This document shows, one piece after another, positions 3,578-36,572 of a stretch of DNA of 38,989 nucleotides. The notes beneath the pieces were generated by a model, which saw only the letters and a list, made by a program, of their open reading frames with translations, was not told where the DNA came from and made no database searches. A program made the position numbers and the translations under genes. The DNA is taken from positions 1 through 38,989 of IMG/VR virus record IMGVR_UViG_3300035211_000076, one strand, 5' to 3'. This DNA is from a virus. How positions within the stretch are numbered: the first letter of the stretch is position 1; every line of letters begins with the position of its first letter.

Positions 3578-3808
3578 GAAATATCCAAGGGCAAAATTGG
3601 TGAAGTATCTAAAATATTAGAAGAAGTACAGGAACTACAAGATGCATTTCAAGATGGGGATAGAATTTTACAGCTTATAGAATTATCTGATATTGTTGGT
3701 GCTATTAAATGCTTTTTAGAAAACTACTTTAATGATTTTTCTATAGAAGAATTAATATATTTTGCAAATAAAACAAATGAAAGTTTTAAAGATGGGACAA
3801 GAAAATGA
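3563..3808 (+). CDS. MazG-like nucleotide pyrophosphohydrolase
   Basis: This 81-residue, all-helical protein has the metal-binding pattern of the MazG/phosphoribosyl-ATP pyrophosphohydrolase superfamily: E20-E21xxE24 on one helix and E40xxD43 on the next (EEVQE, ELSDIVGA). Family enzymes hydrolyse nucleoside triphosphates to monophosphate and pyrophosphate. In phages they are thought to cleanse nucleotide pools or lower (p)ppGpp. The length matches compact phage versions. It overlaps the aaRS-like gene by ATGA. Its start lies in a 20-bp sequence repeated exactly at the start of the gene at 4350, so both proteins begin MYHKK. Confidence 0.75.
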   Translation: MYHKKEISKGKIGEVSKILEEVQELQDAFQDGDRILQLIELSDIVGAIKCFLENYFNDFSIEELIYFANKTNESFKDGTRK

Positions 3809-4350
3809 ACATTAATGTAAATTTAATTGAACAGGCTATTCAATTCTATAGAATATGCGGATATAAAGGTCTTTCTGTACCTATGATAGTTAATAAAGAT
3901 AGTTTAGATGTTACAAAACCAAATTGGGTAGAAAATGTTTATCATGATAAATATTTAGATAAATGCTACGTTGCATCTGCTGAACAAAGCTTTATACAAA
4001 TGGAAAAAGATGGAACATTACCAAAAGAAGGATTCTATTACGCTTTAACACCTTGTATTAGAGATGAACGTAGTTATGATGATTTGACTTATCATATTTT
4101 TCTAAAACTTGAATTGATATTTATTGGTGGTGATCAAATAGAACAAATAATACACGATGTAGGTGTGTTTTTTAAAACTATAAAATTAAACCCTCAAAGA
4201 GTTATGACTGATATTGGCGAAGATATTTATTGTAATGGTATAGAACTAGGCAGTTATGGAATAAGAAAAATGCCAAATGGTTTATTATATACATATGGTA
4301 CAGGTATATCCGAACCACGAACAAGTATTGCTTTAAGTAGGAACAAATAA
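3805..4350 (+). CDS. class II aminoacyl-tRNA-synthetase-like catalytic core protein
   Basis: This 181-residue protein has several hallmarks of the class II synthetase fold. SAEQSF (59-63) is followed by a motif 2-like TPCIRDER (R86, E88) with a downstream LKLELIF strand (E103). A conserved-looking IELGSYGIR (146-154) comes next, then a motif 3-like YGTGISEPRTSIAL (164-177). No anticodon-binding domain is present, and the whole is far shorter than a working synthetase. It could activate an amino acid for something other than tRNA, bind a nucleotide, or be inactive. The assignment comes from motif order and spacing, not a search. It is coupled to the MazG-like gene and the pair is flanked by short direct repeats. 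Confidence 0.6.
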   Translation: MNINVNLIEQAIQFYRICGYKGLSVPMIVNKDSLDVTKPNWVENVYHDKYLDKCYVASAEQSFIQMEKDGTLPKEGFYYALTPCIRDERSYDDLTYHIFLKLELIFIGGDQIEQIIHDVGVFFKTIKLNPQRVMTDIGEDIYCNGIELGSYGIRKMPNGLLYTYGTGISEPRTSIALSRNK

Positions 4351-8909: not shown

Positions 8910-9506
8910 ATGGCAGATAGTGATTATGCACAATGTATGGAAATAGTTGAAGCCGTTATGGAATGGATTGCTCGCCGATGGACTAAAAGCATGATAAAAG
9001 CAGAGTTAAGGGATTGGTTCCCGGGAATGTCTTCATTTGCTTGTGGTTTTATAATTAGTGCTGCTAGGAAAGAAATAAGAAAAAGGTACAATATCGACCC
9101 AGCAGAATACAAGGGAAGACAAATTGAATTTTATGAATCTATTATAAGAAGCAAAACTAAAGTTCGTGATAAATTAAGTGCTGCTGAAAGAATAGATAAA
9201 TTACTTGGACTTGAACATATTGTAAATGATAATCCAGATGCAGTAGCGGCAAAAATAAGAGCCGCTATTAATGAAATGGATAGTTCAATAGGAGCCACAA
9301 ATGGCAAAGAAAGTCAAAATGAAGGGGACAGCAAAGTTAATGCCAAATCCAGCACGGAAAGCAATGAACCACTACGGAGCGAGGAGCCCGCTAAGGAAAA
9401 AGAAATCATTAATGAAGAAGATATCGTGTTCCCTATTGACATTTCTGAGATTCCTAAAGATGCTTTAATTAATTTTGCAGCTAATCAGCGGAAGAAAAGG
9501 GCATGA
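8910..9506 (+). CDS. terminase small subunit (candidate)
   Basis: This 198-residue protein lies immediately upstream of, and overlaps by ATGA, the large terminase. Residues 8-60 look like a helix-turn-helix (IVEAVMEWIARRWTKSMIKAEL...FACGFIISAAR) of the DNA-recognition kind found in small terminases. Residues 65-120 are helical, suitable for oligomerisation. Residues 125-165 are a low-complexity Ser/Glu/Asn linker, and the end (FPIDISEIPKDALINFAANQRKKRA) is a likely contact for the large subunit. It would recognise phage DNA and start packaging. Assignment rests on position and fold impression. A second, out-of-frame ORF lies inside the linker-coding part. Confidence 0.72.
   Translation: MADSDYAQCMEIVEAVMEWIARRWTKSMIKAELRDWFPGMSSFACGFIISAARKEIRKRYNIDPAEYKGRQIEFYESIIRSKTKVRDKLSAAERIDKLLGLEHIVNDNPDAVAAKIRAAINEMDSSIGATNGKESQNEGDSKVNAKSSTESNEPLRSEEPAKEKEIINEEDIVFPIDISEIPKDALINFAANQRKKRA
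9301..9468 (+). CDS. overlapping basic ORF inside terminase small-subunit gene, 55 aa
   Basis: In the +1 frame relative to the terminase gene, an ATG at 9301 follows AGGAG by eight bases. It opens 55 codons beginning MAKKVKMKGTAKLMPNPARK, strongly basic and plausible as a nucleic-acid-binding peptide. The host frame here encodes a low-complexity linker with unusually many G/C-rich codons for this genome, as expected if two frames are constrained. It may also be chance. It is not visible in any single-frame view of the terminase. Confidence 0.35.
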   Translation: MAKKVKMKGTAKLMPNPARKAMNHYGARSPLRKKKSLMKKISCSLLTFLRFLKML

Positions 9507-10846
9507 TTCTTACTCCACGATGGACGGCACTAAAGCCACATGCTGAGCAACAAAGATTCTACTATTCATCTTGTAGATTTAACATCGCTCATGCTGGAAG
9601 ACGTGGTGGTAAAACAGAACTTGCAAAACGAAAAATAATAAAACGAGCATTAACTTTTCAATTACCTCAAGGACGATTTGTTTGTGGTGCTCCAACTCAT
9701 CGTCAAGCAGTTGATATTTTTTGGGATGATTTAATTGCATTGATTCCAAAAGATTTTTTGTTTACAAAAGACAATCGCTCTATCTCAACTTCATATCGGA
9801 AAATAAAATTAATAAATGGAGCTACAATAGAAGTTCTTGGACTTGATAAATCAGAACGAATTGAAGGTCCCCCACTTGATGGATTTGTCGGTGATGAGTT
9901 TGGTAATTTCAAAGCGGATTGTTGGGGTAAACATATCCGACCAGCGTTGTCAACTTTGGGCAGATTAGGATGGGCGGACTTAACTGGAGTCCCTGAAGGA
10001 AAGAATCATTATTATCAGTTAGCGGAAGATGCTAAAGATAAAGATGATTGGGACGTATTTACTTGGCATTCTAGAGAAATAAATCCTGAGGAAGCTGAAG
10101 CAGCGTTAGGTGATTTAGATTCTTTAACATATAATCAAGAGTATGGTGGCGAGTTTGTTTCCTTTAAAGGAAAATGTTATTATGCTTTTAATAGCGAATT
10201 AAATTGTCCACCGGAAGGTGAAAGAATATTATATAATCCAAACTACCCATTAATATTTAGCTGGGACTTCAATCGCATTCCAGGCAATTGTATTATATTG
10301 CAGGAACTTCCGGCTCCTGATTGGTTAATAAAAAGAAATCAAGGAAAGAATCGTGGCACTATAACTTGTGCCATTGATGAAATATTTTTAACACAAGATA
10401 GTAACACAGAAAAGATTTGTGATATACTAATAAATAGATGGCGACATCATAAGGGTCTAGTATTTTTGTATGGTGATGCAACAGGGGGAGCAAAGAAGAG
10501 TAGTGGAGTGAAGGGCAGTGATTGGGATATTATAAAAAATAAATTAAAAGGCGTATTTAATTATCATGAGAAATACAAAAAATCTAATCCACCTGTAAGA
10601 GTACGAATCAATTCTGTTAATAGTAGATTGATTGCAGCCGATGGATATGTTGGGACTATAGTTGATAAAAAATGCAAGTTCTTAATAAGAGACTTTGAAG
10701 GTGTAACTTGTGATGATACTGGTGATATTGAAAAAAGTGATATAAAAAGTTTACTAACACATATATCGGATGGCTTTGGTTATTTTGTAGAAGTTGAGCA
10801 TCCTTTTGGTGGAAAAGAAGCTTATTCGATAAGTAATTATGGTTAA
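9503..10846 (+). CDS. terL: terminase large subunit
   Basis: This 447-residue packaging motor has both expected domains. The ATPase has Walker A AGRRGGKT (31-38) and Walker B FVGDE (D131, E132). The C-terminal RNase H-like nuclease has acidic residues at D255 (FSWDFN), D325 (LYGDATGG) and D423 (HISDGFGYF). It cuts concatemeric DNA and pumps it into the prohead through the portal. The length is normal. The start overlaps the small subunit by ATGA. The portal is not next, as is usual, but about 7 kb downstream, with small genes and a cargo block between. Confidence 0.95.
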   Translation: MILTPRWTALKPHAEQQRFYYSSCRFNIAHAGRRGGKTELAKRKIIKRALTFQLPQGRFVCGAPTHRQAVDIFWDDLIALIPKDFLFTKDNRSISTSYRKIKLINGATIEVLGLDKSERIEGPPLDGFVGDEFGNFKADCWGKHIRPALSTLGRLGWADLTGVPEGKNHYYQLAEDAKDKDDWDVFTWHSREINPEEAEAALGDLDSLTYNQEYGGEFVSFKGKCYYAFNSELNCPPEGERILYNPNYPLIFSWDFNRIPGNCIILQELPAPDWLIKRNQGKNRGTITCAIDEIFLTQDSNTEKICDILINRWRHHKGLVFLYGDATGGAKKSSGVKGSDWDIIKNKLKGVFNYHEKYKKSNPPVRVRINSVNSRLIAADGYVGTIVDKKCKFLIRDFEGVTCDDTGDIEKSDIKSLLTHISDGFGYFVEVEHPFGGKEAYSISNYG

Positions 10847-12712: not shown

Positions 12713-14197
12713 ATGAAAGAAAAGATACGAGTTCTTATTGCTTCTGTAAAAGCAAGAGAAGAACAACTAAAAATTGTATTAAAAAGAATTTATGATAAAG
12801 TAGATGAAATTGATTTGGTATTAAACTGGTATGAAGAAGTTCCAGATTGGATAAAAGATAAAAGTAAAATTTTCGCTTATGTAAATCCAAATAATAAAAA
12901 TGCTCATGATGAGATTTGGAATTATAGTTGTGAAAATTTTAATGGTTATATATTTATTTGTGACGATGATTTATATTATCCCGATGATTACTTTGAAAAG
13001 TTAATAGATGCAATTGAAAGACATGATAGGAAGTGTGTTATAACGGCACATGGTTCTAATATCATACAACCAGTAAAAGATTATTTTAGTTGTCGGATTA
13101 CTTACGGCTTTTCAGATTGGATGCATCGTGATATATTTGTAGATATGGCCGGAGTTGGTTGTACAGCTTTTCATTCTTCTACGATAAAGCCAACATTGCA
13201 GGATTTTCCAATTCTCTATTGTAGAGACTTATGGTTTTCTATTTTATGTGCAAAGAAAAATATTAAAATAGTTTCATTGCAAAGACCAGCAGAATGGATA
13301 CGAGCGTTGCAGACATCAGGTGATACAGTTTATGAAATATCGCAGAATAATAAAAAACTAAAAACGCTTAAAGATAGAGTATTAAAAGAGCAATTGTTAC
13401 CATTGTTATTTTGTGATAAAAGCTGCAATGAATATGTTTGTATTACCGATTATGATTTTGACAAGCGTCTTTTGGATAAGAGTTTAAAAACATTGAATAA
13501 TGTCAATTATCGTAGCAATGTTGTTATATTTTCTAATAAGCAGAATAAATATATCCACACAATTGAAGGTGAAAATTTTAATAAACCAATAGAAAAGGAA
13601 TTTTTAACGCAATACGTTACTCCAGAAGATTATTCAATCGGAAGAATGGGTAGTAAAGTAATTACTCAATATCGTTTTATTAAAGGTTTGCCAACTGGCT
13701 CAAAAGTTATTTCCGCTGATGCTGATTTATATTATTTGAAAAATCCTTTTGAAGCTTTTGAAAAAGATTTTGATATTGCAGTCACTACTCGTGGTTACAA
13801 TTATAAATATCCAATTAACGCTGGAGTAGTTATGATGCGAGTAAATGATAAAGTTCGAGGGCTATTAAACTTTATTATGAATCAAATCTATGAGCGTAAC
13901 TGGGATAGGTTAATTGACTATCAAAATAAATTTAATCATTCTGGTAATGATTGGTATATCGACCAAGATATTTGGAATTGTTGCTGGTTGTATAGAGAAG
14001 CTATTGAAAAAACATTCGGAGTAAAAATAATTGACATTGGCCCAAAGTATAATTTTTGTCCTCATGCTGATGGGAATATTCATGTCATTAATGCTGCTAA
14101 ATATAAATTACTCATGGCATATCAAGATAAATCAGCACATATTTTACACCTTAAATCAAGGCTTAAGGAATTGGTTACTGACGGGAGTTTGGTATGA
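12713..14197 (+). CDS. two-domain glycosyltransferase
   Basis: This 494-residue protein has two GT-A-type units. Residues 1-230 begin IRVLIASVKAREEQL and reach a CDDDLYYPDDYF motif (D84-D86), the metal/nucleotide-sugar site of GT2-like enzymes. Residues 238-494 begin anew (YVCITDYDFDKRLL) and carry ADADLYYLKNP (D336xD338), with NAGVVMMR and WYIDQDIWN, resembling GT8-like nucleotide-sugar transferases. Two sugars could be added in series. The ribosome site AAGGTGG is strong. It opens the cargo block between terminase and portal. There is no signal peptide or membrane helix, so it acts in the cytoplasm. Donor and acceptor are unknown. Confidence 0.8.
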   Translation: MKEKIRVLIASVKAREEQLKIVLKRIYDKVDEIDLVLNWYEEVPDWIKDKSKIFAYVNPNNKNAHDEIWNYSCENFNGYIFICDDDLYYPDDYFEKLIDAIERHDRKCVITAHGSNIIQPVKDYFSCRITYGFSDWMHRDIFVDMAGVGCTAFHSSTIKPTLQDFPILYCRDLWFSILCAKKNIKIVSLQRPAEWIRALQTSGDTVYEISQNNKKLKTLKDRVLKEQLLPLLFCDKSCNEYVCITDYDFDKRLLDKSLKTLNNVNYRSNVVIFSNKQNKYIHTIEGENFNKPIEKEFLTQYVTPEDYSIGRMGSKVITQYRFIKGLPTGSKVISADADLYYLKNPFEAFEKDFDIAVTTRGYNYKYPINAGVVMMRVNDKVRGLLNFIMNQIYERNWDRLIDYQNKFNHSGNDWYIDQDIWNCCWLYREAIEKTFGVKIIDIGPKYNFCPHADGNIHVINAAKYKLLMAYQDKSAHILHLKSRLKELVTDGSLV

Positions 14198-14433
14198 GCA
14201 ACCATTGTTCAAGAGAAATTTGCAAATTATGTTTTAATATTATCCGTGTAGGATTTTGGGTTCCAAATGATATATGGAAGGATGTGGTAATTAGAAATCA
14301 TGGCGAAGAAACAATCTGTTTAGATTGTTTTACACGAATAGCTGATGAAAAGCAAGTTGAATGGGATAAAGAAATACAATTTTTCCCAGTTAGTTTTATA
14401 ACTCATACTGAAAGGATTTCAAATGATGGATAG
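14194..14433 (+). CDS. zinc-motif protein, 79 aa
   Basis: Two CxxC pairs, CKLC near residue 11 and CLDC near residue 42, frame a FWVPNDIWKDVV segment. The end is KEIQFFPVSF. This four-cysteine fold recurs in phages as small zinc proteins without assigned function. It has an ATGA overlap with the glycosyltransferase before it and overlaps the next gene by 11 bases. Confidence 0.6.
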   Translation: MSNHCSREICKLCFNIIRVGFWVPNDIWKDVVIRNHGEETICLDCFTRIADEKQVEWDKEIQFFPVSFITHTERISNDG

Positions 14434-15178
14434 AGCCTTTGTAATAGCGTCTTTCGGCAATAGGCAAATACAAGTCCAACGATTGATTAAAAACATTCGC
14501 CAGTATTCTGATTTACCTATACATATTTTGACAACACATGATTCTAATTTGGGGTTTCCTAAAAATACTTATACTCATAAGATTTATACTGAGTTTGTAG
14601 ATCGTATATGGCAAAAAGGATCACTAAGAGCAGATATTCGTAATTCAAATTATTATAAAGTTAAGTTTGCATTAGATCACCACTATCATAGCTTGTGTAT
14701 GCTGGATGATGATATGCTTATAGTTAATAATCAGTTTGCAGATGGATTTGCAATTGCAGAAAGATTTGGTTGTGCATTACCATTAAATCCAAGAATATAT
14801 GTTAGTTATAATATGATGGGAGCAGATGTACAATATAAAGATATTGATGAGACTTTAAAAACTCCAATATTTGCATCTGCTTGTAATTTTAGCCCATTCT
14901 TTGTTTATCCGCATTGTAATCACACAAGAAACTTTTTAAGTCAACTAGAAAAAGAATTGCGAGAAAATGTATGCCGAGGGACTTTGGCAATTTGGAAGGC
15001 AAGTTGGAAGTCACAAATTACTCCAGTTTATTTACCGGAGCAATGGTGCGTTTGTGGTGAGAATGCTGAATATATTAAAAATTATTCTGTATTATTACAA
15101 GGTAAATTAACACCAGTAAAACCAATAATGTTGCATTTAGGGCATGAAAAAGTTAAAGAAGTTTTTGGTATTGATTAA
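14423..15178 (+). CDS. glycosyltransferase-like protein, 251 aa
   Basis: It begins FVIASFGNRQIQVQRLIKNI, the first strand and helix of a GT-A fold, and carries LCMLDDDMLIV (D95-D97), the nucleotide-sugar/metal motif. Later ACNFSPFFVYP and a closing IMLHLGHEKV fit acceptor and C-terminal elements. It is shorter than typical GT2 enzymes but complete for the core. The paired ATGATG start follows AAAGGA. It is probably part of the same glycan pathway as the gene at 12713. The specific family is uncertain. Confidence 0.65.
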   Translation: MMDRAFVIASFGNRQIQVQRLIKNIRQYSDLPIHILTTHDSNLGFPKNTYTHKIYTEFVDRIWQKGSLRADIRNSNYYKVKFALDHHYHSLCMLDDDMLIVNNQFADGFAIAERFGCALPLNPRIYVSYNMMGADVQYKDIDETLKTPIFASACNFSPFFVYPHCNHTRNFLSQLEKELRENVCRGTLAIWKASWKSQITPVYLPEQWCVCGENAEYIKNYSVLLQGKLTPVKPIMLHLGHEKVKEVFGID

Positions 15179-15187
15179 GGATAAATA

Positions 15188-15403
15188 ATGAAGTATTTAA
15201 TTATGATAATGGCTTTAGTTAATGATTTTGTTTTATTAGCTGCTTTGACTATTGTTTATTTTAATATTAAATCAAAAATATTATTTATACTAATAAGTAT
15301 AATAGCTTATTTTATTTGGAAAAATTTAGGTGGTATAAATAATTGGAAATTGTCAACAATTAAAAGATTTTTAATTAATTGGGATAAAATAAATTTAAAA
15401 TGA
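15188..15403 (+). CDS. small membrane protein, 71 aa
   Basis: Two hydrophobic helices (MIMALVNDFVLLAALTIVYF and KILFILISIIAYFIWKNL) are followed by a short basic tail. It overlaps the following radical SAM gene by ATGA. In a glycosylation block it could anchor enzymes or a lipid carrier step, but nothing in it proves that. Confidence 0.5.
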   Translation: MKYLIMIMALVNDFVLLAALTIVYFNIKSKILFILISIIAYFIWKNLGGINNWKLSTIKRFLINWDKINLK

Positions 15404-16680
15404 AAGTAATTTTAGTATATCCAAATCAAACACGAGAATCTTTTATATCTATGGCAAGGAAGCATAGATATTTTAATATTAAGCCAAGACCGTTTCCAAT
15501 GATTAATCTTGGAATGCTTTATCTTTATAATGCAATAAAAGATATTTGTGAAGTAAAATATATTGATAACAATGTACATAAACTTTCAACGCAAGATTTA
15601 ACTAATTGGATAATAAATCAAGAGCCTGATATTGCAGCTTTTGGTGGAACTATAACTGAATGGACAGAAGCTAAAAATGTTTCTGCTGAATTACAAAAGA
15701 AAAATATCATAACAGTTTATGGCGGTTCAAATGCAACTGCAAATCCTGAGAAGCATGTAAAGTATTTTGATTTTGTGTTTCGTGGATGGGCGGAAGAAAC
15801 TTTACGGCAGTTTATTTTAACTTATGGCGAAAAATATTTTTGGCAAAAAATTAATGGTCTTTGTTGTAATAATATTATTAATAAACCAAATTTAAATTGT
15901 GATTTGCACAAATTAAAATATCCAGCAAGAGATCAAGTGGATTTAAATTGTTATCGTCGTAGTCAATTTGGTTTACCAGAGCCAGTTGATATCGTAGTGG
16001 CGAGCCGAGGGTGTCCTTTTGCTTGTAGATTTTGCTCAAGTAAAAGTATTTGGGATCAAAAATATTTAATGCGTCCCGTTGACGATGTACTATGGGAAGT
16101 AAAATATATGATGGAGGTTTTTGGCACAAAAACTATTCATTTTAGAGAAGATAATTTAACAGTAAATAAAAATTGGCTTGCAGAACTTTGTAAAGGGTTG
16201 AAGGAATTAAAAGTTAATTGGCTTTGTCAATCAAGAGTGACGGCTGTAGATAAAGAAACTGTATTAATGATGAAAGACACTGGTTGCAAAGTTATTTGTT
16301 TTGGATTTGAAAGTGCAAATGATTCTACTCTAGAATATATTAATAAAGGTTTTACTTTTGGTGATATTTGTAAACTTATTCAAACTATGGAAGAATGCCA
16401 GATGTTGTATTCTGGTGGATTTATGGTTGGGGTGTTAAATGAAGGCGAAAAGGAAATTTCAAAAACTTTAGCGTTTACAAGAACAATAAGTAAATATCCA
16501 CATAGTAAGATACCAAGAGGAGCAGGGCGATTTGTTGGATGGCCAATGTCGGAAACTTATAAAGAAATAATTGATAATGATTTAGTGGCTTTTAATTGGG
16601 AATCAGGTGAACAGTTGATTCCGCATACATATAAATTGAAAGCTAACAAAGTTGAAAATTGCATAGCAAGGTATTGGTAA
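15400..16680 (+). CDS. B12-binding-domain radical SAM enzyme
   Basis: This 426-residue protein has the class architecture of cobalamin-dependent radical SAM enzymes. Residues 1-150 form a Rossmann-like B12-binding domain (KVILVYPNQ, PDIAAFGGTI, ITVYGGSNATANPEKH, FDFVFRGWAEETL). A radical SAM barrel follows, with CPFACRFC (C205, C209, C212). FREDNLTVN, WLCQSRV and CFGFESAN are the usual strands after the cluster motif. The DxHxxG cobalamin-ligand motif is not evident, as in many of this class. Relatives methylate unactivated carbons or rearrange rings. The neighbours suggest a sugar or nucleoside substrate. The start is coupled by ATGA. Confidence 0.88.
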   Translation: MKVILVYPNQTRESFISMARKHRYFNIKPRPFPMINLGMLYLYNAIKDICEVKYIDNNVHKLSTQDLTNWIINQEPDIAAFGGTITEWTEAKNVSAELQKKNIITVYGGSNATANPEKHVKYFDFVFRGWAEETLRQFILTYGEKYFWQKINGLCCNNIINKPNLNCDLHKLKYPARDQVDLNCYRRSQFGLPEPVDIVVASRGCPFACRFCSSKSIWDQKYLMRPVDDVLWEVKYMMEVFGTKTIHFREDNLTVNKNWLAELCKGLKELKVNWLCQSRVTAVDKETVLMMKDTGCKVICFGFESANDSTLEYINKGFTFGDICKLIQTMEECQMLYSGGFMVGVLNEGEKEISKTLAFTRTISKYPHSKIPRGAGRFVGWPMSETYKEIIDNDLVAFNWESGEQLIPHTYKLKANKVENCIARYW

Positions 16681-16683
16681 AAT

Positions 16684-17325
16684 ATGATAAAGAAAAAAAT
16701 ATTAGGGATATTCTGTCATCCGGATGACGAAGTGCTTTTTGGCTGGCCGATTTTTCAAAGCGAAGAATATAAAAAGTATTTAATTATTCTTTGCGATGAT
16801 TCAACTCGTAATCGTCAAAATCGTTTGCCAGCATTAAAAGGAGTTTGTAAATCAGAAAATATAAATTTAGTAGAATGTTTATCTGAAGATAATAATTTTT
16901 ATGCTCTACCAACAAGGCGAGCAGTAAATTTATTAACTAATTCTGTAGATAGAATAAATAGAACCATCTCTAAATTTGTAGATGTGATAAAACCGGATTA
17001 TATATTCACACATAATCCAGTTGGTGAATATGGTCATGGTAGTCATCGTTTATGTTTTGAATTAGTAAGTCAACATCCATTAGTAAAAAATATTTTGTTT
17101 ACAGATATATGCCAAAAGAGTAATCATCGTAGTAGTGATAGAATACCATTATCAGTTATAAACGCTTATTATAGGGAAAGATTTGCTATTAGTTCTTATT
17201 TTGAAAACAAATTAGACATTAATTTTTATAATAGATGTAAAGCAATATATGATAAATATAACGCTTGGACTTGGAATCATGAGCCAGTAACAAATTGTAA
17301 TTTATATTTTTTAGAGAATAAATAA
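16684..17325 (+). CDS. PIG-L/LmbE family deacetylase
   Basis: This 213-residue protein has the zinc-site motif CHPDDE (H12, D15 with D14 as base) at the end of the first strand and the distal ligand H121 in HNPVGEYGHGSH (110-121). Both are diagnostic of the LmbE-like N-deacetylases, which remove acetyl groups from N-acetylglucosamine-type sugars in GPI anchors, mycothiol, bacillithiol and antibiotics. The length is normal. It lacks a signal peptide, so it acts on a cytoplasmic sugar intermediate. It lies between the radical SAM enzyme and an exported protease. Its last codons and the junction with the next gene are part of a 22-bp repeat. Confidence 0.88.
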   Translation: MIKKKILGIFCHPDDEVLFGWPIFQSEEYKKYLIILCDDSTRNRQNRLPALKGVCKSENINLVECLSEDNNFYALPTRRAVNLLTNSVDRINRTISKFVDVIKPDYIFTHNPVGEYGHGSHRLCFELVSQHPLVKNILFTDICQKSNHRSSDRIPLSVINAYYRERFAISSYFENKLDINFYNRCKAIYDKYNAWTWNHEPVTNCNLYFLENK

Positions 17326-17327
17326 TG
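17306..17327 (+). repeat. 22-bp direct repeat, left copy, at gene junction
   Basis: An A, six Ts and then AGAGAATAAATAATG are repeated exactly at 17995-18016. This copy covers the end of the deacetylase gene (FLENK-stop) and the start codon of the protease gene. Confidence 0.75.
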
Positions 17328-18014
17328 ATTAAAAGAAATATTTTATTAATAAGTTTAATTATCACTATTTGTATATTTTGTACAGCTAATTCTTATAATG
17401 ATGTTAAGAATGATAATATTGTACCAAGATTATATTCTTCGGCGGTTAAGTCATCAATATTTTTAAAAGCAACAGAAAAGAAGGAAGTTTTTCCTAATAT
17501 TTTTATAGATGAATATTATAGTGCTTCTGGTTTTGTTGTTAATAAGAAACTTGGTTATATTATAACTGCTGGTCATTTTGCAAAAGGTGGTAGATTTATA
17601 GAAACAAATATTAATAATATTTCTATACCGATAGAAATAATTAAAATAGATGAAAGTAATGATATTGCATTATTAAAAATAAATCCAGTTTATTTAGAAA
17701 ATAGAATCGAAATAAAATTTAATACTAATATTTATATTGGTGAATCTGTTTGTGTTATTGGTTCACCTTTGGGTTTATCAGATTCTATTACAATTGGTAT
17801 TATAAATAAAGATAGAGCAGATAATTTTGCTATTTGGGAAAAAGCTACAAATGGAGTCTGGTTTACTGATGCTGTTATTGCTTTAGGTAGCAGCGGAGCA
17901 CAAGTTATAAATTATGATGGTGAATTAGTTGGCATTGTTGTTGGTATTTTTGGAGATAAATTTGGTGTTATTATACCAGCAATAACTATACAAAATTTTT
18001 TAGAGAATAAATAA
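17325..18014 (+). CDS. exported trypsin-like serine protease
   Basis: This 229-residue protein has a basic start and hydrophobic core (residues 3-20) typical of a signal peptide, then a chymotrypsin/DegP-type protease domain. The catalytic triad is H84 (ITAGHF), D113 (SNDIALLKI) and S190 in GSSGAQV, where GNSGG is usual. The oxyanion-region glycine before the serine is kept. There is no PDZ domain. It would act outside the cytoplasmic membrane on an unknown protein. Its gene is exactly bracketed by 22-bp identical sequences, so it looks like an inserted cassette between deacetylase and portal. Confidence 0.8.
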   Translation: MIKRNILLISLIITICIFCTANSYNDVKNDNIVPRLYSSAVKSSIFLKATEKKEVFPNIFIDEYYSASGFVVNKKLGYIITAGHFAKGGRFIETNINNISIPIEIIKIDESNDIALLKINPVYLENRIEIKFNTNIYIGESVCVIGSPLGLSDSITIGIINKDRADNFAIWEKATNGVWFTDAVIALGSSGAQVINYDGELVGIVVGIFGDKFGVIIPAITIQNFLENK

Positions 18015-18016
18015 TG
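17995..18016 (+). repeat. 22-bp direct repeat, right copy, at gene junction
   Basis: Identical to 17306-17327. It covers the end of the protease gene (again FLENK-stop) and the start codon of the portal gene, so excision between copies would leave the deacetylase directly followed by an intact portal start. Confidence 0.75.
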
Positions 18017-19531
18017 GCTGTAACAAGTATTCACAATCAAACAGATTATTCATCTTCAGGGGTGTCATCTAATAAAGATGATGAAAAATCACCAGTAGCT
18101 ATTCCATGCACTGGCTATGAAGAGATGAAGGTCCATTGGGAATTGATACATGATTTATGTGGTGGAACACTGAGAATGAGAGAAGCTGGCACTAAATGGC
18201 TTCCTCAAGAATCAGCGGAGGATATAACTGCTTATGATAATCGTTTAAATAGAGCTATATTATTTAATGGATTCAATGATACTTTAAATAAATTAACTAA
18301 TAGGCCATTCATACATCCGATTCTAATTACAGATATGCCTGAGGAATTAATTTATTTATTGGATGATGTTGATGGAAACAAGAAGAGTTTGGAAACATTC
18401 TGCAAAGAAGTTTTAAAAAATTTAATTAAATATGGCATTGCTTATATTTTTGTTTCCCATTCAAGATTAGAAGATGTTGAAAATGGCAAAGAATTAACTA
18501 TAGCAGAAGAGAAATCTCTTGGTGCTAGAATATATTTAATAAATATTAGCCCTGCTGATTTAATAGGCTGGCAAACTGAAAAGATTGGAGATAAATTAGA
18601 ATTAGCACAAATAAGAGTAAAAGAAACAGCGACTGAAGCTAATGGTGATTATGGAGATATAGCAATAAATTATATCAATGTTTACGGGAAAGATGCATAC
18701 GAAATACATCAACAAGATGATGATAAACAAGATAAATATAATAAAATAGAAGAAGGCAGTTCTACTCTTGGTAGTATTCCTTTAGTATCTATTTATGCAA
18801 ATAGAACTGGTTTTATGACGGCTGACCCACCTCTTGAGGATTTAGCTTGGCTTAACTTAGCTCATTGGCAAAGTTATGCCGATCAAAGAAACATTTTACA
18901 TTTTACTCGTTTTGGTTTATTGTTTGGTAAGGGACTACCCCAAGAAATGGTAGAAGCTGGTTCATTGCAAGTCGGCCCAACAAAAGCTTATCTTGTGGAA
19001 CCTGCTGAAGCTGATTTAAAATATGTTGAGCATAATGGTAAATCAATTGATGCTGGTAAGAATGATGTTGAAGATATAGAACAAAAGATGAGAGTGCTCG
19101 GTAATCAACCTCTTATAAAAAATATTCCAAGTACAGCTACTTCTGAAAGAATAGATGAAGATAGGACTGTTAGCCAATTACAATCATGGGTGCATGCATT
19201 ACAAAAAGGTATTAAAGAAGCAATAAAAACGGCTTGTGATTGGAGAAAAATAATTCCTAAAGATACTTTTGATATTCAAATTTATAGCGACTTTGAGGCA
19301 TTCGTTTTAGGTGGAGGGGATAAACAATTATTATTAGATACTAGAAAGATTGGTGAAATAACAAGGGAAAGATTTCTTAAAGAATTACAACGTCGTGGAG
19401 TATTTTCACAAGAAATGAATGCTGAAGAAGAGGCGAAAGCTGCTGATGAGGAAGGGAATAAGGATTTAAAAGATTTTTTGCCAGAAGAAAATAATACTGA
19501 AGAAGAAATGGAAGAGGAAGAAGATGAATAA
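18014..19531 (+). CDS. portal protein (DUF4055 type)
   Basis: This 505-residue protein begins the head module. The central stretch PPLEDLAWLNLAHWQSYADQRNILHFTRFGLLFGKG is characteristic of the DUF4055 phage portal family. The segments before it (CKEVLKNLIKYGIAYIFV, INISPADLIGWQTEKIG) match portal clip and wing strands. It would form the dodecameric ring through which DNA enters and which docks the terminase. The C-terminus is a highly acidic tail (NTEEEMEEEEDE), common in portals. The start is TAATG on the protease stop and the end is TAATG on the next gene. Confidence 0.85.
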   Translation: MAVTSIHNQTDYSSSGVSSNKDDEKSPVAIPCTGYEEMKVHWELIHDLCGGTLRMREAGTKWLPQESAEDITAYDNRLNRAILFNGFNDTLNKLTNRPFIHPILITDMPEELIYLLDDVDGNKKSLETFCKEVLKNLIKYGIAYIFVSHSRLEDVENGKELTIAEEKSLGARIYLINISPADLIGWQTEKIGDKLELAQIRVKETATEANGDYGDIAINYINVYGKDAYEIHQQDDDKQDKYNKIEEGSSTLGSIPLVSIYANRTGFMTADPPLEDLAWLNLAHWQSYADQRNILHFTRFGLLFGKGLPQEMVEAGSLQVGPTKAYLVEPAEADLKYVEHNGKSIDAGKNDVEDIEQKMRVLGNQPLIKNIPSTATSERIDEDRTVSQLQSWVHALQKGIKEAIKTACDWRKIIPKDTFDIQIYSDFEAFVLGGGDKQLLLDTRKIGEITRERFLKELQRRGVFSQEMNAEEEAKAADEEGNKDLKDFLPEENNTEEEMEEEEDE

Positions 19532-26343: not shown

Positions 26344-26561
26344 TGAAAAATAAATCTTTTGCTAAAATAATAGCTAATTTAATAACTCAAGTTTGTTTTA
26401 AATACAGAAATAAGTTTAAATGCAAGATAGAAGATTTAAAAATAAAGCCTGTAGAAATAAATTTAATAGCCCAACTTATTTTTTATGAATATATTAATAA
26501 TAAAGAAGGTCAAATTTTATTGAGTGATATTATAGAAAAAAGAAAAGATGGCATATTATGA
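26343..26561 (+). CDS. hypothetical protein, 72 aa
   Basis: It starts as TAATG on the preceding stop (the in-frame ATG at 26322 would run through that gene). It is basic and helical (KNKSFAKIIANLITQVCFKYRNKFKCKI...). It overlaps the tail-terminator gene by ATGA. Not recognised. Confidence 0.5.
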   Translation: MKNKSFAKIIANLITQVCFKYRNKFKCKIEDLKIKPVEINLIAQLIFYEYINNKEGQILLSDIIEKRKDGIL

Positions 26562-32228: not shown

Positions 32229-32284
32229 AAATTAATTTGAGAGATAATTCTGACGGCGATGTTTAGTTTTTGAGGAGAACTAAA

Positions 32285-33538
32285 ATGACGGATAAAAAAA
32301 TAAAAGTATATTTTGCGTTGTTAAATAATGGCCCGATAAGAAGAGAAATGTCTACTATAGTTATACCAGCTATGCAAAAAACTCCGGGAGTCGAATTGGT
32401 ATGGGAAAATCCTAGCGTGACTTGGGCCAATCCAATTTCAAGTAATCGTAATAAAATTGTCAAACGATTTTTAGAAACAGATTGTGATTATTTATTAATG
32501 ATTGACGATGATGTTGTACCATATCATAATCCGTGTGAATTGGTTTTTGCGGGCGGTAATACTGATGTTATTGGTTGTCCGGCTTTAGTAAGAGCTTCTG
32601 GTCAAACAATTGTTTGGACTGCATATATACCCCATTCTGATGGAATTGGCTATTCGGCGGTAGATTTAGATTCATTTGATGATATGTTTGATTTATTAGA
32701 AGTTGCTATAGTTGGCACTGGATGTATTTTGATAAAAAGAGCAGTATTAGAAAAAGTAAGAGAGCCATTTCATTCTGAATTTGATGAAGATGGTATCCAA
32801 ACTTATGGTACTGATTTTGCGTTTTGTAGAAGAGCTACAAAAGCTGGATTCCATGTTTATACAACTGTTCATAGACGTTGCGAACATTTTAAAACAGTTG
32901 GCTTAAATGATTTTGACGCTTGGGACAGCATAAACTATTTTTGTAGTGATAATGCTAAATTTGGCATTCCTTGGGGTGAATATAGCATAACTCAAAAAGA
33001 TTGGAATTTTATAAAAGCCATTATAAAAGGTTTAGGAGTTGAAAAAATATTGGAGTTCGGTTGTGGTTTATCTTCTTTATTGCTTTCTGAATTATGCGAA
33101 GTTATAAGTTACGAAACTGATAATGAATGGAAAGAAAAGATAGAAAGCAAAGTATTGCCCCAAAATAATTTAACTGTAAAGCTTTGGGATGGCGTTAATT
33201 TTCCAAGAGATTTAATCAAAGTAGATGCAAAACAAGGAGTAAAGACTCCTAAATTCGATTTATGCTTTGTTGATGGCCCAAAAGAAATAAGAAAAGGCGG
33301 TGCTGGTAGAAATATGTCTATTCATATTGCATCAAAATTATCGGATCATGTTATAGTACACGATGCTGGACGACCTGATGAAGAAAAATTTCAAAGAGCA
33401 CATCTTCGTAGTGTTTTTAAACTTGAAAGAAAAAGTGGCAATCACATGACAAGATGTAATTATTGGAAAAGACGACCACATCCAGTAACTCTTGAAGAAA
33501 TAAAAGCTAAAATGAAAAGCAGTAATATAAATAATTAA
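32285..33538 (+). CDS. glycosyltransferase-methyltransferase fusion
   Basis: This 417-residue protein lies inside the tail module. Residues 1-235 form a GT-A domain (YLLMIDDDVVPYHNP, D74-D76, then VAIVGTGCILIKRAVLEKV and a YGTDFAFCRRATKAGF stretch), as in GT2-like enzymes. Residues 245-400 look like a class I SAM methyltransferase: ILEFGCGLSSLLLSEL (motif I, 255-270), E277 in VISYETDNEW, and FDLCFVDGPKE. It could add and methylate a sugar on the virion tail or another target. The ATG at 32285 follows GAGGAGA and replaces the TTG at 32270. Confidence 0.8.
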   Translation: MTDKKIKVYFALLNNGPIRREMSTIVIPAMQKTPGVELVWENPSVTWANPISSNRNKIVKRFLETDCDYLLMIDDDVVPYHNPCELVFAGGNTDVIGCPALVRASGQTIVWTAYIPHSDGIGYSAVDLDSFDDMFDLLEVAIVGTGCILIKRAVLEKVREPFHSEFDEDGIQTYGTDFAFCRRATKAGFHVYTTVHRRCEHFKTVGLNDFDAWDSINYFCSDNAKFGIPWGEYSITQKDWNFIKAIIKGLGVEKILEFGCGLSSLLLSELCEVISYETDNEWKEKIESKVLPQNNLTVKLWDGVNFPRDLIKVDAKQGVKTPKFDLCFVDGPKEIRKGGAGRNMSIHIASKLSDHVIVHDAGRPDEEKFQRAHLRSVFKLERKSGNHMTRCNYWKRRPHPVTLEEIKAKMKSSNINN

Positions 33539-33572: not shown

Positions 33573-36572
33573 ATGTCTCGTTTGTTTAATAACACTGTTC
33601 CTGAATACTTGTATAGAAATTCTGCTATACAAGCCACTCCTCCGTTTGCATGGAGTTGTTGGTGTAGAGTTAATGATAAAAGTGTTATTAATAATTTTTT
33701 ATGGCTAGGGGATAAAGATGCTACGAACCAATGCCATAGAATGGGATATTCTTCTGCTGGTTATTGTTTTATTAATTCTAATGATGGAACGAGTAAATTG
33801 GCAATAACTTCTGGTGATATAACTGAAAATGAATGGTTCCATCTTGTTGGCATTATTGCTTCAGATACCGACCGACGAATTATAAGGAATGCTATAGATA
33901 AAGGGACAGAATCTACTTCTATTTCACCTTCAGGTATTGATAGATTCACTATTGGTATAAGGGGGAATGATGAACAGCTTGATCAAGCCACATCTGGAAA
34001 TATATCAGAAGTGGCAATTTGGGACTTATCTTCTTGGCCGGGAGCTACTGCTTCAGATAAAGCAGATAGCTTTGAAGCTATAGTGTCTAATCTTGTTAGT
34101 GAGGATTATCTACCTAGTGATTATCCCACAGGATTAGTTTCTTATTGGGATTTATTGTGGAGCATAAGAGATAAAGTTGGTTCTAATGATTTAACTGCTG
34201 TTGGCACTGTTGAAGCACAACATTATCCGTATATATTTAGTCCCATCTCTTCTTCATCTAATTTTATAGGATCTATTGATTTTGAAGTTTCAAATTTAAT
34301 AGGTTCTATTAGTTCAGCTTCTAGTTTATCAGGTAATTTAAATTCTGCAATTACATTAATAGGCTCTATTAGTTCAGCTTCTAGTTTATTAGGTAATTTA
34401 AATGCAGCAACTAAGTTACTTGGTGCTATAAGTTCAGCTTCTAGTTTATCAGGTAATTTAAATTCAGCAATTACATTAATAGGTTATATTGCTTCTTCAT
34501 CTAGTTTATCAGGTAATTTAAATTCAGTAATTCAATTTACAGGTTCTATTAGTTCAGCTTCTAGTTTATCCGGTTCTTTTACAAATGAAGTTCCGCTGAT
34601 AGGTTCTATTAGTTCAGCTTCTAATTTATCAGGTAATTTAAATTCAGCAATTAAATTAGCAGGTTCTATTGCTTCTTTATCCAGTTTATCAGGCAATTTA
34701 AATTCAGCAATTACATTAATAGGCTCTATTGCTTCTTTATCCAGTTTATCAGGTAATTTAAATTCAGCAATTACATTAATAGGTTATACTGCTTCTTCAT
34801 CTAGTTTATCAGGTGTTGTTGAAATGCCAGTAAATTTAGTTGGTAATGTATTATCTAGTTCTGGTATAATTGGTGAATTAACAGTTATAAGATACAATAA
34901 TTTAGCAGGTAATTCGCTGTGTAGTACTAATTTGATCGCCCTATTGGAAGTTTATATTAATTTATTTGGCAATTGTGTAAGCGTTTCTATTACAGTAGGT
35001 GAAATCAGAGAACCTATTTATTTACAGGGAGCTATTTTTAATGACTCTAGTCATGATAATTGGTTATCTCCAACTAGTTTTATTGACAATGCCAATTGGG
35101 TAGATGAAAGTAGGGCATATGATGGTAATGTGAACACTTTTGCAGGACATTCATATATATTCCCTCGTAGTTGGTCTGGATTTTTGCAATTATTGCATTC
35201 TTCAATATGGTGCAACAAGATAAGATACTATGAAGATTTATGGCTTCCTAATGATTTATATGATTTAGATGTCTATTATAATAATTCTTGGCATAATCTT
35301 TATCAAGGTAAAGGATCTTTGACTGGGGTTTGGAAAACTCACAATCTTAATGGTATTTACAAAGTTTCAAGAGTTCGTATCAGAAGATATAATAGTGATG
35401 GAGAATATAGATCAGTTTATATCCATGAAGTTAATTTTAATGAATACATGGGGTCATTGCTATATGGACTATTAACATTCTTACTTGGATTATCTGGGAC
35501 TTGTGAAGTTAATTCTAGTTTGAACGCTGATTTACAAGTAATTAAATCCTTGCAAGATAGTATTAATAGTTACTCAAATATTTATAGTGATTTAAGTTTT
35601 ACTTATGATTATAGAGGAAGTATTTCATCAAATTCTAATATATCAGGAAATCTAACTGTAGAAAAGTCAATAAACTCGCAAGTATTTTGTTATTCTAGCG
35701 TGATTAGTTCTTTGCATCAATGCAAAGAACTGATAGGGCATTCGACTTCATTTTCTATATTATCTGGATTATTGACAAATATAGTAAGTTTAAATGGCTT
35801 GAGCTTGGGAGTAAGTTATCTTTCAGCGGATCGTCTAAATACCATAATATTAGAATCTGAGATATTAGGCATAACGCAGCCTCTAGGAAATGCATATGCT
35901 TCATTAGAAGTATTGACTAGTTTAGAATCTAGTATTTTAGATACTTCCAATTTATATTCTAATTTCAGTCTTATAATAAATTTAATAGGTGAAATTGATT
36001 CTGAATCTAATTTATTTGCTGATAGGCTAAATACTATAATATTAGATGGGTCAGTAAGTGGTGTCACTGAGCCTTTTGGCAATGCTATTGGTGCATGCAA
36101 AGTAGAAACTACTTTACAAAGTGTAATTAATAGCAAGTCTAATATAAATTCGTTACAACTTTTAGAATATTACATAGGATTCTATGAACGTTTAACTAAT
36201 CAAATTACTACTTATTTTCAATCTATTGCTGATTCTAATAATTTAATTGTAAGATATGATGATGATTGCAGGGATACTCCTTCAAATGAATTGTGGTGTT
36301 TTTGTAGTATAGATTATGGTAGCTGTAATAAGAGTAGTATTGGTGCTAATCGTTTTAGAAATATTGGCAATTTAAATATAAAAATAAAAAACCCAATAGG
36401 TTTAGGTATTAGCGAAATCTTGAGCACTGCTGACATAGTGGCTAATGCTTTTAGGAATATTAATTTAAATAATATTATTTTTGAAGTCCCCAGAGTTAGA
36501 AATGTTGGCAGAATAAAAGATGATCATCAATACAATGTTATTTGTCCATTTTTTTCGGATAGAATAGGTTAA
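33573..36572 (+). CDS. large repeat-containing tail fibre protein with fused tail-terminator-like domain
   Basis: This 999-residue mosaic has several parts. About 20-215 is a LamG/concanavalin-like domain (NEWFHLVGIIASDTDRR, ISEVAIWDLSSW, GLVSYWDLL). About 226-419 has nine to ten 20-residue repeats of the type SLSGNLNSAITLIGSISSAS. About 487-625 is a discoidin (F5/8C)-like domain (DNANWVDESRAYDGNVNTFA, SRVRIRRYN). More degenerate repeats follow. About 872-999 is a second copy of the tail-terminator domain of the gene at 26558 (LIVRYDDDCRDTP, LWC, YNVICPFFSD). Two carbohydrate-binding-type domains suggest receptor contact. Confidence 0.78.
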   Translation: MSRLFNNTVPEYLYRNSAIQATPPFAWSCWCRVNDKSVINNFLWLGDKDATNQCHRMGYSSAGYCFINSNDGTSKLAITSGDITENEWFHLVGIIASDTDRRIIRNAIDKGTESTSISPSGIDRFTIGIRGNDEQLDQATSGNISEVAIWDLSSWPGATASDKADSFEAIVSNLVSEDYLPSDYPTGLVSYWDLLWSIRDKVGSNDLTAVGTVEAQHYPYIFSPISSSSNFIGSIDFEVSNLIGSISSASSLSGNLNSAITLIGSISSASSLLGNLNAATKLLGAISSASSLSGNLNSAITLIGYIASSSSLSGNLNSVIQFTGSISSASSLSGSFTNEVPLIGSISSASNLSGNLNSAIKLAGSIASLSSLSGNLNSAITLIGSIASLSSLSGNLNSAITLIGYTASSSSLSGVVEMPVNLVGNVLSSSGIIGELTVIRYNNLAGNSLCSTNLIALLEVYINLFGNCVSVSITVGEIREPIYLQGAIFNDSSHDNWLSPTSFIDNANWVDESRAYDGNVNTFAGHSYIFPRSWSGFLQLLHSSIWCNKIRYYEDLWLPNDLYDLDVYYNNSWHNLYQGKGSLTGVWKTHNLNGIYKVSRVRIRRYNSDGEYRSVYIHEVNFNEYMGSLLYGLLTFLLGLSGTCEVNSSLNADLQVIKSLQDSINSYSNIYSDLSFTYDYRGSISSNSNISGNLTVEKSINSQVFCYSSVISSLHQCKELIGHSTSFSILSGLLTNIVSLNGLSLGVSYLSADRLNTIILESEILGITQPLGNAYASLEVLTSLESSILDTSNLYSNFSLIINLIGEIDSESNLFADRLNTIILDGSVSGVTEPFGNAIGACKVETTLQSVINSKSNINSLQLLEYYIGFYERLTNQITTYFQSIADSNNLIVRYDDDCRDTPSNELWCFCSIDYGSCNKSSIGANRFRNIGNLNIKIKNPIGLGISEILSTADIVANAFRNINLNNIIFEVPRVRNVGRIKDDHQYNVICPFFSDRIG
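34300..34815 (+). repeat. 60-bp tandem repeats in the fibre gene
   Basis: Units of 60 bp (about eight full, with partial ends), imperfect but in exact register, encode the 20-residue Ser/Leu/Gly repeats. Some adjacent units differ by only a few bases, indicating recent duplication or gene conversion. Length variation between relatives would be expected. Confidence 0.85.

Follow-up and report, generated by a model that had tools for sequence, protein, structure and literature searches.

We identified a conserved, modular cassette of four genes between the large terminase and portal genes of an uncultured phage, and its predicted function is sugar tailoring. The cassette encodes two glycosyltransferases (GT1 and GT2), a B12-binding radical SAM enzyme (rSAM) and a PIG-L/LmbE-type N-deacetylase (PIG-L). 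We regard it as modular because rSAM is replaced in one relative. The combination of GT1, GT2, rSAM and PIG-L is new for a phage, although cellular precedent exists for its logic.

Layout of the terminase–portal interval

The window, that is, the whole stretch of DNA analysed, is a phage fragment of 38,989 bases with about 30% G+C from a single IMG/VR virus record. All genes across the part studied, including every feature given here, lie on the plus strand. Early-type genes are followed by the small and large terminase genes (8910–10846), small open reading frames (ORFs) and the enzyme block (12713–18014), after which come genes for the portal, head morphogenesis, the major head protein (phrog_283), connectors, the tape measure and tail proteins. 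The large terminase (9503–10846; phrog_2) forms the left border of the interval and the portal protein (18014–19531; phrog_145, 1e-104) the right border. A preliminary description had placed the enzymes in a terminase–portal block of about 5 kb; the enzymes are there, but the true interval is 7.2 kb since the large terminase ends at 10846, and its first 1.9 kb consists of small ORFs. The accompanying premise, that in most siphoviruses the portal gene closely follows the terminase, needs qualifying: among phages whose portals are related to this one, the gap is itself variable, ranging from about 0.25 to 4.5 kb.

Within the block, GT1, with two GT-A domains (12713–14197), is followed by GT2 (14423–15178), a two-span membrane peptide of 71 residues that is mostly hydrophobic along its length (15188–15403), rSAM (15400–16680), PIG-L (16684–17325) and an HtrA/trypsin-like protease with a hydrophobic segment at its N terminus (17325–18014; PF13365, 8e-16). 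ORF calls, Pfam and PHROGs recovered every gene named in the preliminary description at these positions, and the couplings it reported (ATGA at 14194 and 15400, TAATG at the last two junctions) are present in the DNA. Its inventory had overlooked a Cys-rich ORF of 79 residues with a CxxC...CxxC pattern (14194–14433), which lies between the glycosyltransferase genes, overlaps both and was found in none of the relatives. An Rfam scan of the window gave no element, and therefore no B12 riboswitch there. Promoter-like sites in the window were no commoner than expected by chance.

Conservation and rarity of the cassette

One retrieved contig, L001, is the same virus: its 13.4 kb of alignment contain no mismatch and a single gap of 30 bases. 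L002 has the arrangement TerL–GT1–GT2–rSAM–PIG-L–portal at 60–77% amino-acid identity, with the four core genes at 60–67% and in the same order, and lacks the Cys-rich ORF, the membrane peptide and the protease. L023 carries GT1, GT2, several DNA-modification genes, rSAM, another DNA methyltransferase, PIG-L and the portal. L012, which has another sample code, carries GT1, GT2, an unknown 357-residue protein, a 245-residue protein that resembles a further glycosyltransferase and has no Pfam match, an FkbM methyltransferase and PIG-L, where the contig ends; the FkbM methyltransferase and the other genes stand in the place of rSAM. The order GT1–GT2–tailoring gene–PIG-L is kept in L002, L012 and L023, and rSAM–PIG-L is kept in L021 and L022, which begin within the interval and carry DNA methyltransferases, rSAM, GIY-YIG, PIG-L, the protease and the portal. 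L020 runs from PIG-L through the protease to the portal, and L015 holds the terminase and GT1 before its contig ends. The protease precedes the portal in L020 and L021, and not in L002 or L023. DNA methyltransferases or Mom-like genes occur in the interval in L020, L021 and L023, interleaved with the cassette in the last two. Remote relatives of GT2 and PIG-L (30–35% identity) lie in phage sugar islands, adjacent in L025 and L028 and both present in L024; the marine-phage islands with such distant homologues also carry DegT aminotransferase, cytidylyltransferase and SDR genes.

The genes thus recur in related phages as a unit and not scattered, the pattern that the preliminary description had named as evidence against its reading. 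That description had grouped the membrane peptide and the protease with the enzymes. GT1, GT2, rSAM and PIG-L are found at the same site in relatives; the membrane peptide and the protease are both absent from L002. We conclude that the conserved core consists of GT1, GT2, rSAM and PIG-L; the membrane peptide is not conserved, and the protease is a variable neighbour outside the core. Values of dN/dS of roughly 0.16–0.37 for the four core genes, compared with 0.26 for the portal and with dS near saturation, indicate that the core genes are under purifying selection comparable to that on the portal. Because relatives were retrieved with cassette genes as queries, the sample may under-represent members of the lineage that lack the cassette. 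The cassette is absent from the portal-found contigs L003–L008 (about 31–34% identical) and from isolate relatives.

A tblastn search of 50,697 isolate phage records detected no relative of GT1, GT2 or rSAM; the same rSAM query matched 115 plasmid records, and therefore the search itself works. PIG-L gave 4 weak matches in phage records, from Erwinia and Xanthomonas phages, and no PHROGs family matched GT2, rSAM or PIG-L with an E value of 1 or lower. A search of about 700 genomes from three phyla with rSAM returned hundreds of generic B12-rSAM matches (at most 175 bits, 22–29% identity), none with an adjoining cassette within short flanks, and no cellular source or substrate can therefore be named. 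In about 85,000 cellular genomes PIG-L matched 42 loci at no more than 31% identity, none of them beside relatives of GT1, GT2 or rSAM, and GT1 had one weak match in 299 genomes. We rejected the core as a defence system, PADLOC giving no match above 0.01 for GT1, GT2 or PIG-L and a weak result for rSAM. The B12-rSAM enzyme class is itself not new in viruses, because its genes were noted earlier in viruses of methane-cycling archaea (PMC9723712).

Predicted activities of the four enzymes

The N half of GT1 matches PF00535 (7e-5) and the C half weakly matches PF03407 (Nucleotid_trans; 1e-4, 22.6 bits against a cut-off of 22). In profile comparisons the N domain resembles the GlcNAc-transferase domain of heparosan synthase B (PDB 8vh7, 1e-33, with a two-sequence profile) and KfiA (PDB 5z8b, 1e-12). 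The homology spans the whole heparosan synthase/KfiA glycosyltransferase domain (GT1 residues 5–226, of which 5–217 align with the GlcNAc-transferase domain), and the DDD motif is present. Residues D84-D85-D86 are invariant in 5 relatives, and D336/D338 in 4 full-length relatives. We conclude from these profiles that the N domain is homologous to the KfiA/heparosan synthase GlcNAc-transferases; any use by GT1 of their UDP-GlcNAc donor and GlcA acceptor would be a prediction. GT1 has this domain in common with heparosan synthase B and KfiA but differs in its fused second, distinct GT-A domain, and the phage lacks the glucuronosyl partner of that family. GT2 matched no Pfam family; Foldseek assigned its AlphaFold model (pLDDT 84) to the GT-A fold, nearest to retaining enzymes of GT6/GT8 (BoGT6A, glycogenin and LgtC), and D95 and D97 are invariant in 7 relatives. 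Structure modelling, which the preliminary description had recommended, was informative for GT2 but not for rSAM, whose model, built from 4 sequences, has a pLDDT of 49 and is too poor for judging the active site.

rSAM belongs, by profile score and motif, to the B12-binding radical SAM superfamily. It passes the Pfam cut-offs for both PF02310 (1e-10, 41.7 bits against 32.1) and PF04055 (3e-15, 57.4 bits against 29.5), and its CX3CX2C motif is formed by C205/C209/C212, cysteines that are invariant in 4 relatives. Among NCBIfam models, BchE and HpnJ score highest, but each far under its curated cut-off, and we rejected membership of both families (BchE, TIGR02026, 107.4 bits against 481; HpnJ, TIGR03471, 106.2 bits, E 2e-30, against 577.6). 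The top PDB match of the rSAM profile is AprD4 (1e-12), a remote match common to many rSAM families.

We assign the deacetylase to the PIG-L/LmbE family on a score above the cut-off (PF02585, 1e-7, 32.8 bits against 28.2) and an intact HPDDE metal-binding motif, which is invariant in 10 relatives; the HxxxxH region is also conserved. PIG-L enzymes typically deacetylate alpha-GlcNAc units, as in GlcNAc-PI, precursors of mycothiol and bacillithiol, and N-acetylparomamine, and this preference is consistent with a KfiA-type transferase that supplies alpha-GlcNAc. The heparosan-type homology of GT1 and the deacetylation of GlcNAc by PIG-L enzymes together make a GlcNAc-to-GlcN pathway credible. No membrane spans were detected in GT1, GT2, rSAM or PIG-L.

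Proposed pathway and its acceptor

We propose that the core cassette is a cytoplasmic set for building and tailoring a glycan, expressed with the late genes. GT1 and GT2 would decorate a phage macromolecule with one or several alpha-linked residues of a GlcNAc-type sugar, PIG-L would strip the N-acetyl group and so expose the free amine, and rSAM, as a cobalamin-dependent enzyme, would then C-methylate or rearrange that sugar. The acceptor would be a virion protein, yielding a particle with an unusual amino-sugar coat. We advance this full scheme tentatively as the best explanation, its chance being not far short of even, with the sugar, the order, the chemistry and the acceptor all predicted. 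The sugar pathway suggested in the preliminary description gained in its GlcNAc part from the heparosan synthase B/KfiA homology, whereas methylation and rearrangement are indistinguishable from sequence. We place deacetylation before the rSAM step because HpnK acts before HpnJ in hopanoid biosynthesis (PMC12583986). L012 retains GT1, GT2 and PIG-L but has FkbM in place of rSAM, which suggests constant sugar transfer and deacetylation followed by an exchangeable final tailoring step; this exchange predicts that the sugar diversifies and not the acceptor.

Phages are known to glycosylate their virions and DNA, but for the most part with plain sugars. A heparosan-type GlcNAc-transferase together with a deacetylase and a B12 rSAM would extend viral glycan chemistry to free-amine, radically remodelled sugars, and the cassette could explain host-defence resistance or receptor choice in uncultured phages and offer a source of new sugar-tailoring enzymes. 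That this lineage remodels an amino sugar by radical chemistry, through C-methylation or an HpnJ-like ring contraction, and places it on its own virions or DNA is possible but on balance doubtful; none of the papers found describes a viral pathway to a glycoconjugate with B12 radical chemistry as its last step.

The preliminary description knew of no named system with this exact set. Its composition is new for a phage, but the hopanoid HpnI–HpnK–HpnJ pathway to the BHT cyclitol ether runs the same three reactions in the same order, GlcNAc transfer, N-deacetylation and B12-type radical SAM remodelling (PMC12583986), and the logic therefore has precedent. The systems differ in that the phage rSAM lies far under the HpnJ cut-off (106 of 577 bits), the window shows no hopanoid genes and the cassette sits in a late operon. 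The deacetylases also differ in fold, the phage enzyme being of the PIG-L type and HpnK of the YdjC type. Mycobacteriophages likewise use phage-encoded glycosyltransferases, in their case for virion glycosylation with structural proteins as acceptors (Freeman 2023, via PMC12619734). The passages on them in PMC12619734 mention no deacetylase or radical SAM tailoring, which sets the cassette apart.

A cytoplasmic acceptor is favoured by the absence of membrane spans in the core and by the fact that no genes for a lipid carrier or a flippase were seen. We slightly favour virion protein over DNA because of the late structural location, the soluble enzymes and a further glycosyltransferase beside the tail genes. 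This possible further member of the set (32270–33538), in the tail module, combines a GT2-like domain with a C half judged by eye to be methyltransferase-like, and adjoins tail genes including one for a Ser-rich repeat protein with a lectin-like domain. The unrelated phage L017 has a KfiA-like glycosyltransferase domain in its head module, which also counts for virion protein. The alternative is DNA hypermodification, in which GT1 and GT2 would attach sugar to a hydroxymethylated base and PIG-L and rSAM would then tailor that sugar, blocking restriction. We consider it unlikely, yet the TS-family, HMUDK-type and TAGT proteins encoded by a close relative make it a serious rival. In this relative, G002 (the phage of L012; terminase 75–76% identical), the TS-family protein has CMP 5-hydroxymethylase as its top PDB match and carries LPYD at the site of the Asn of thymidylate synthases. 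Asp at that position goes with dCMP substrates. G002 also encodes an HMUDK_hel protein (6e-45), a TAGT glycosyltransferase (6e-10) and dCMP-deaminase-like and pyrophosphohydrolase-like proteins. Phages with related portals are Mesyanzhinovviridae, in which deoxyuridylate hydroxymethyltransferase is general (PMC11946847), and phage glycosyltransferase clusters acting on 5hmC are reported (Pyle 2024, as cited in PMC12619734). The DNA methyltransferases and Mom-like genes that share the interval in L020, L021 and L023 point the same way.

However, the DNA-type genes of G002 lie about 20 kb away on the replication side, with their own glycosyltransferase. The cassette resembles phage DNA glycosylation of the TAGT and T-even type in having phage glycosyltransferases in a multi-gene cluster, and one relative has TAGT, but GT1 and GT2 show no kinship to TAGT by profile (hhalign probabilities of 4.9 and 0.2 percent), and PF20691 (TAGT) has no match in the window. 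G703 (L023), with the whole cassette, shows no PF00303, PF18723, PF20691 or Tet_JBP in its 45.6 kb. PF00303 and HMUDK_hel were seen in G002 only; the window holds just 9.5 kb to the left of the terminase, which makes their absence there uninformative.

It is improbable that the cassette alters a host-envelope glycan, for example to block superinfection. Phage glycosyltransferases that change O-antigen are well known, and the membrane peptide and exported protease adjoin the enzymes in the window, but neither is conserved with the core, whose enzymes are soluble; neither a flippase nor an enzyme for a polyprenyl carrier was seen, and the location is late and structural. Lysogenic conversion by a temperate phage was judged unlikely, since we noticed no integrase and the search of about 85,000 cellular genomes gave no close copy. 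Still less probable is a free small molecule, such as an aminoglycoside-like or a signalling or protective sugar, in place of a glycoconjugate. Aminoglycoside-type pathways also use GlcNAc transfer, deacetylation and radical SAM chemistry, through a GlcNAc transferase, a PIG-L-type deacetylase and AprD4/GenK-type enzymes acting on an alpha-GlcNAc unit, and the rSAM profile finds AprD4 as its top PDB entry. That match is a remote one shared by many rSAM families, however, the window shows no cyclitol, aglycone or other scaffold-making genes, and the phage glycosyltransferases come from other families. Loose, unrelated cargo in an insertion hot spot is equally improbable, and we rejected chance cargo on conservation grounds: the interval does vary among related phages, where it can also hold genes for DNA methyltransferases, Mom and GIY-YIG proteins, but the same four genes occur in the same order in separate contigs under purifying selection, and the GT2–PIG-L adjacency persists even at 30–35% identity.

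A C-terminal tail on DNA-modifying enzymes

A C-terminal tail resembling QLSxxDFxDLII-stop recurs on DNA-modifying enzymes that are unrelated to one another, and also on one unknown protein. The tail-bearing ORFs were found in three related-phage loci that carry all or part of the glycan cassette, namely L020 (1-401 and 404-1135), L021 (1-714 and 1355-2182) and L023 (3600-5174, 5213-6022, 6672-7721 and 9117-9992), and in locus L108 (12455-12976, minus strand). The enzymes are methyltransferases (four N4/N6, one C5) and Mom or Mom-like proteins, two of them called as Mom by Pfam and the third, cut at its 5′ end, judged Mom-like by eye. The tail lies outside the Pfam domains of its proteins, its codons differ between copies, and it is absent from all of the glycan enzymes. 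Since the capsid proteins of Mesyanzhinovviridae, phages with portals related to that of the window, are similar to Family 2A encapsulins (PMC11946847), one idea, by analogy, is that the tail is a candidate capsid-loading peptide.

DNA hypermodification and a second radical SAM protein

The phage of L012, a related locus with an FkbM methyltransferase, also carries a DNA hypermodification cluster (L109; 323-1135, 1606-2517 and 2956-3975, minus strand) containing TAGT, HMUDK_hel and a TS-family protein with LPYD. The window encodes a second radical SAM protein, which lacks a B12 domain (507-1391). Its residues 20-129 match the PADLOC pVip (viperin) models (2e-18), and the product could be a viperin-like or QueE-like phage enzyme.

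Glycosyltransferases in structural modules

In the tail module, window 32270-33538 encodes a GT2-like domain fused to a putative methyltransferase domain, the latter assigned by eye, and is flanked by a phrog_240 head-protein family member and a large tail protein. A 999-residue protein (33573-36572) has a C-terminal part matching tail terminator phrog_179, a second copy of which (37% identical) forms its own gene at 26558. The N-terminal part is lectin-like, and Ser-rich repeats (LIGSISSASSLSGNLNSAI) are numerous. In L017, from a phage unrelated to that of the window, a KfiA-like glycosyltransferase domain (9857-10510) and an adjoining ORF (together 9348-10510) sit within the head module. The adjoining ORF has a P-loop resembling those of sulfotransferases and gave no match in Pfam.

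Other features of the window

A protein similar to phrog_4806, annotated as histidyl-tRNA synthetase, is encoded in the early region (3805-4350). Over the 13.4 kb aligned, the only difference between the window and L001, two copies of one virus, is a gap of 30 bases within repetitive sequence in the region of window 24745.
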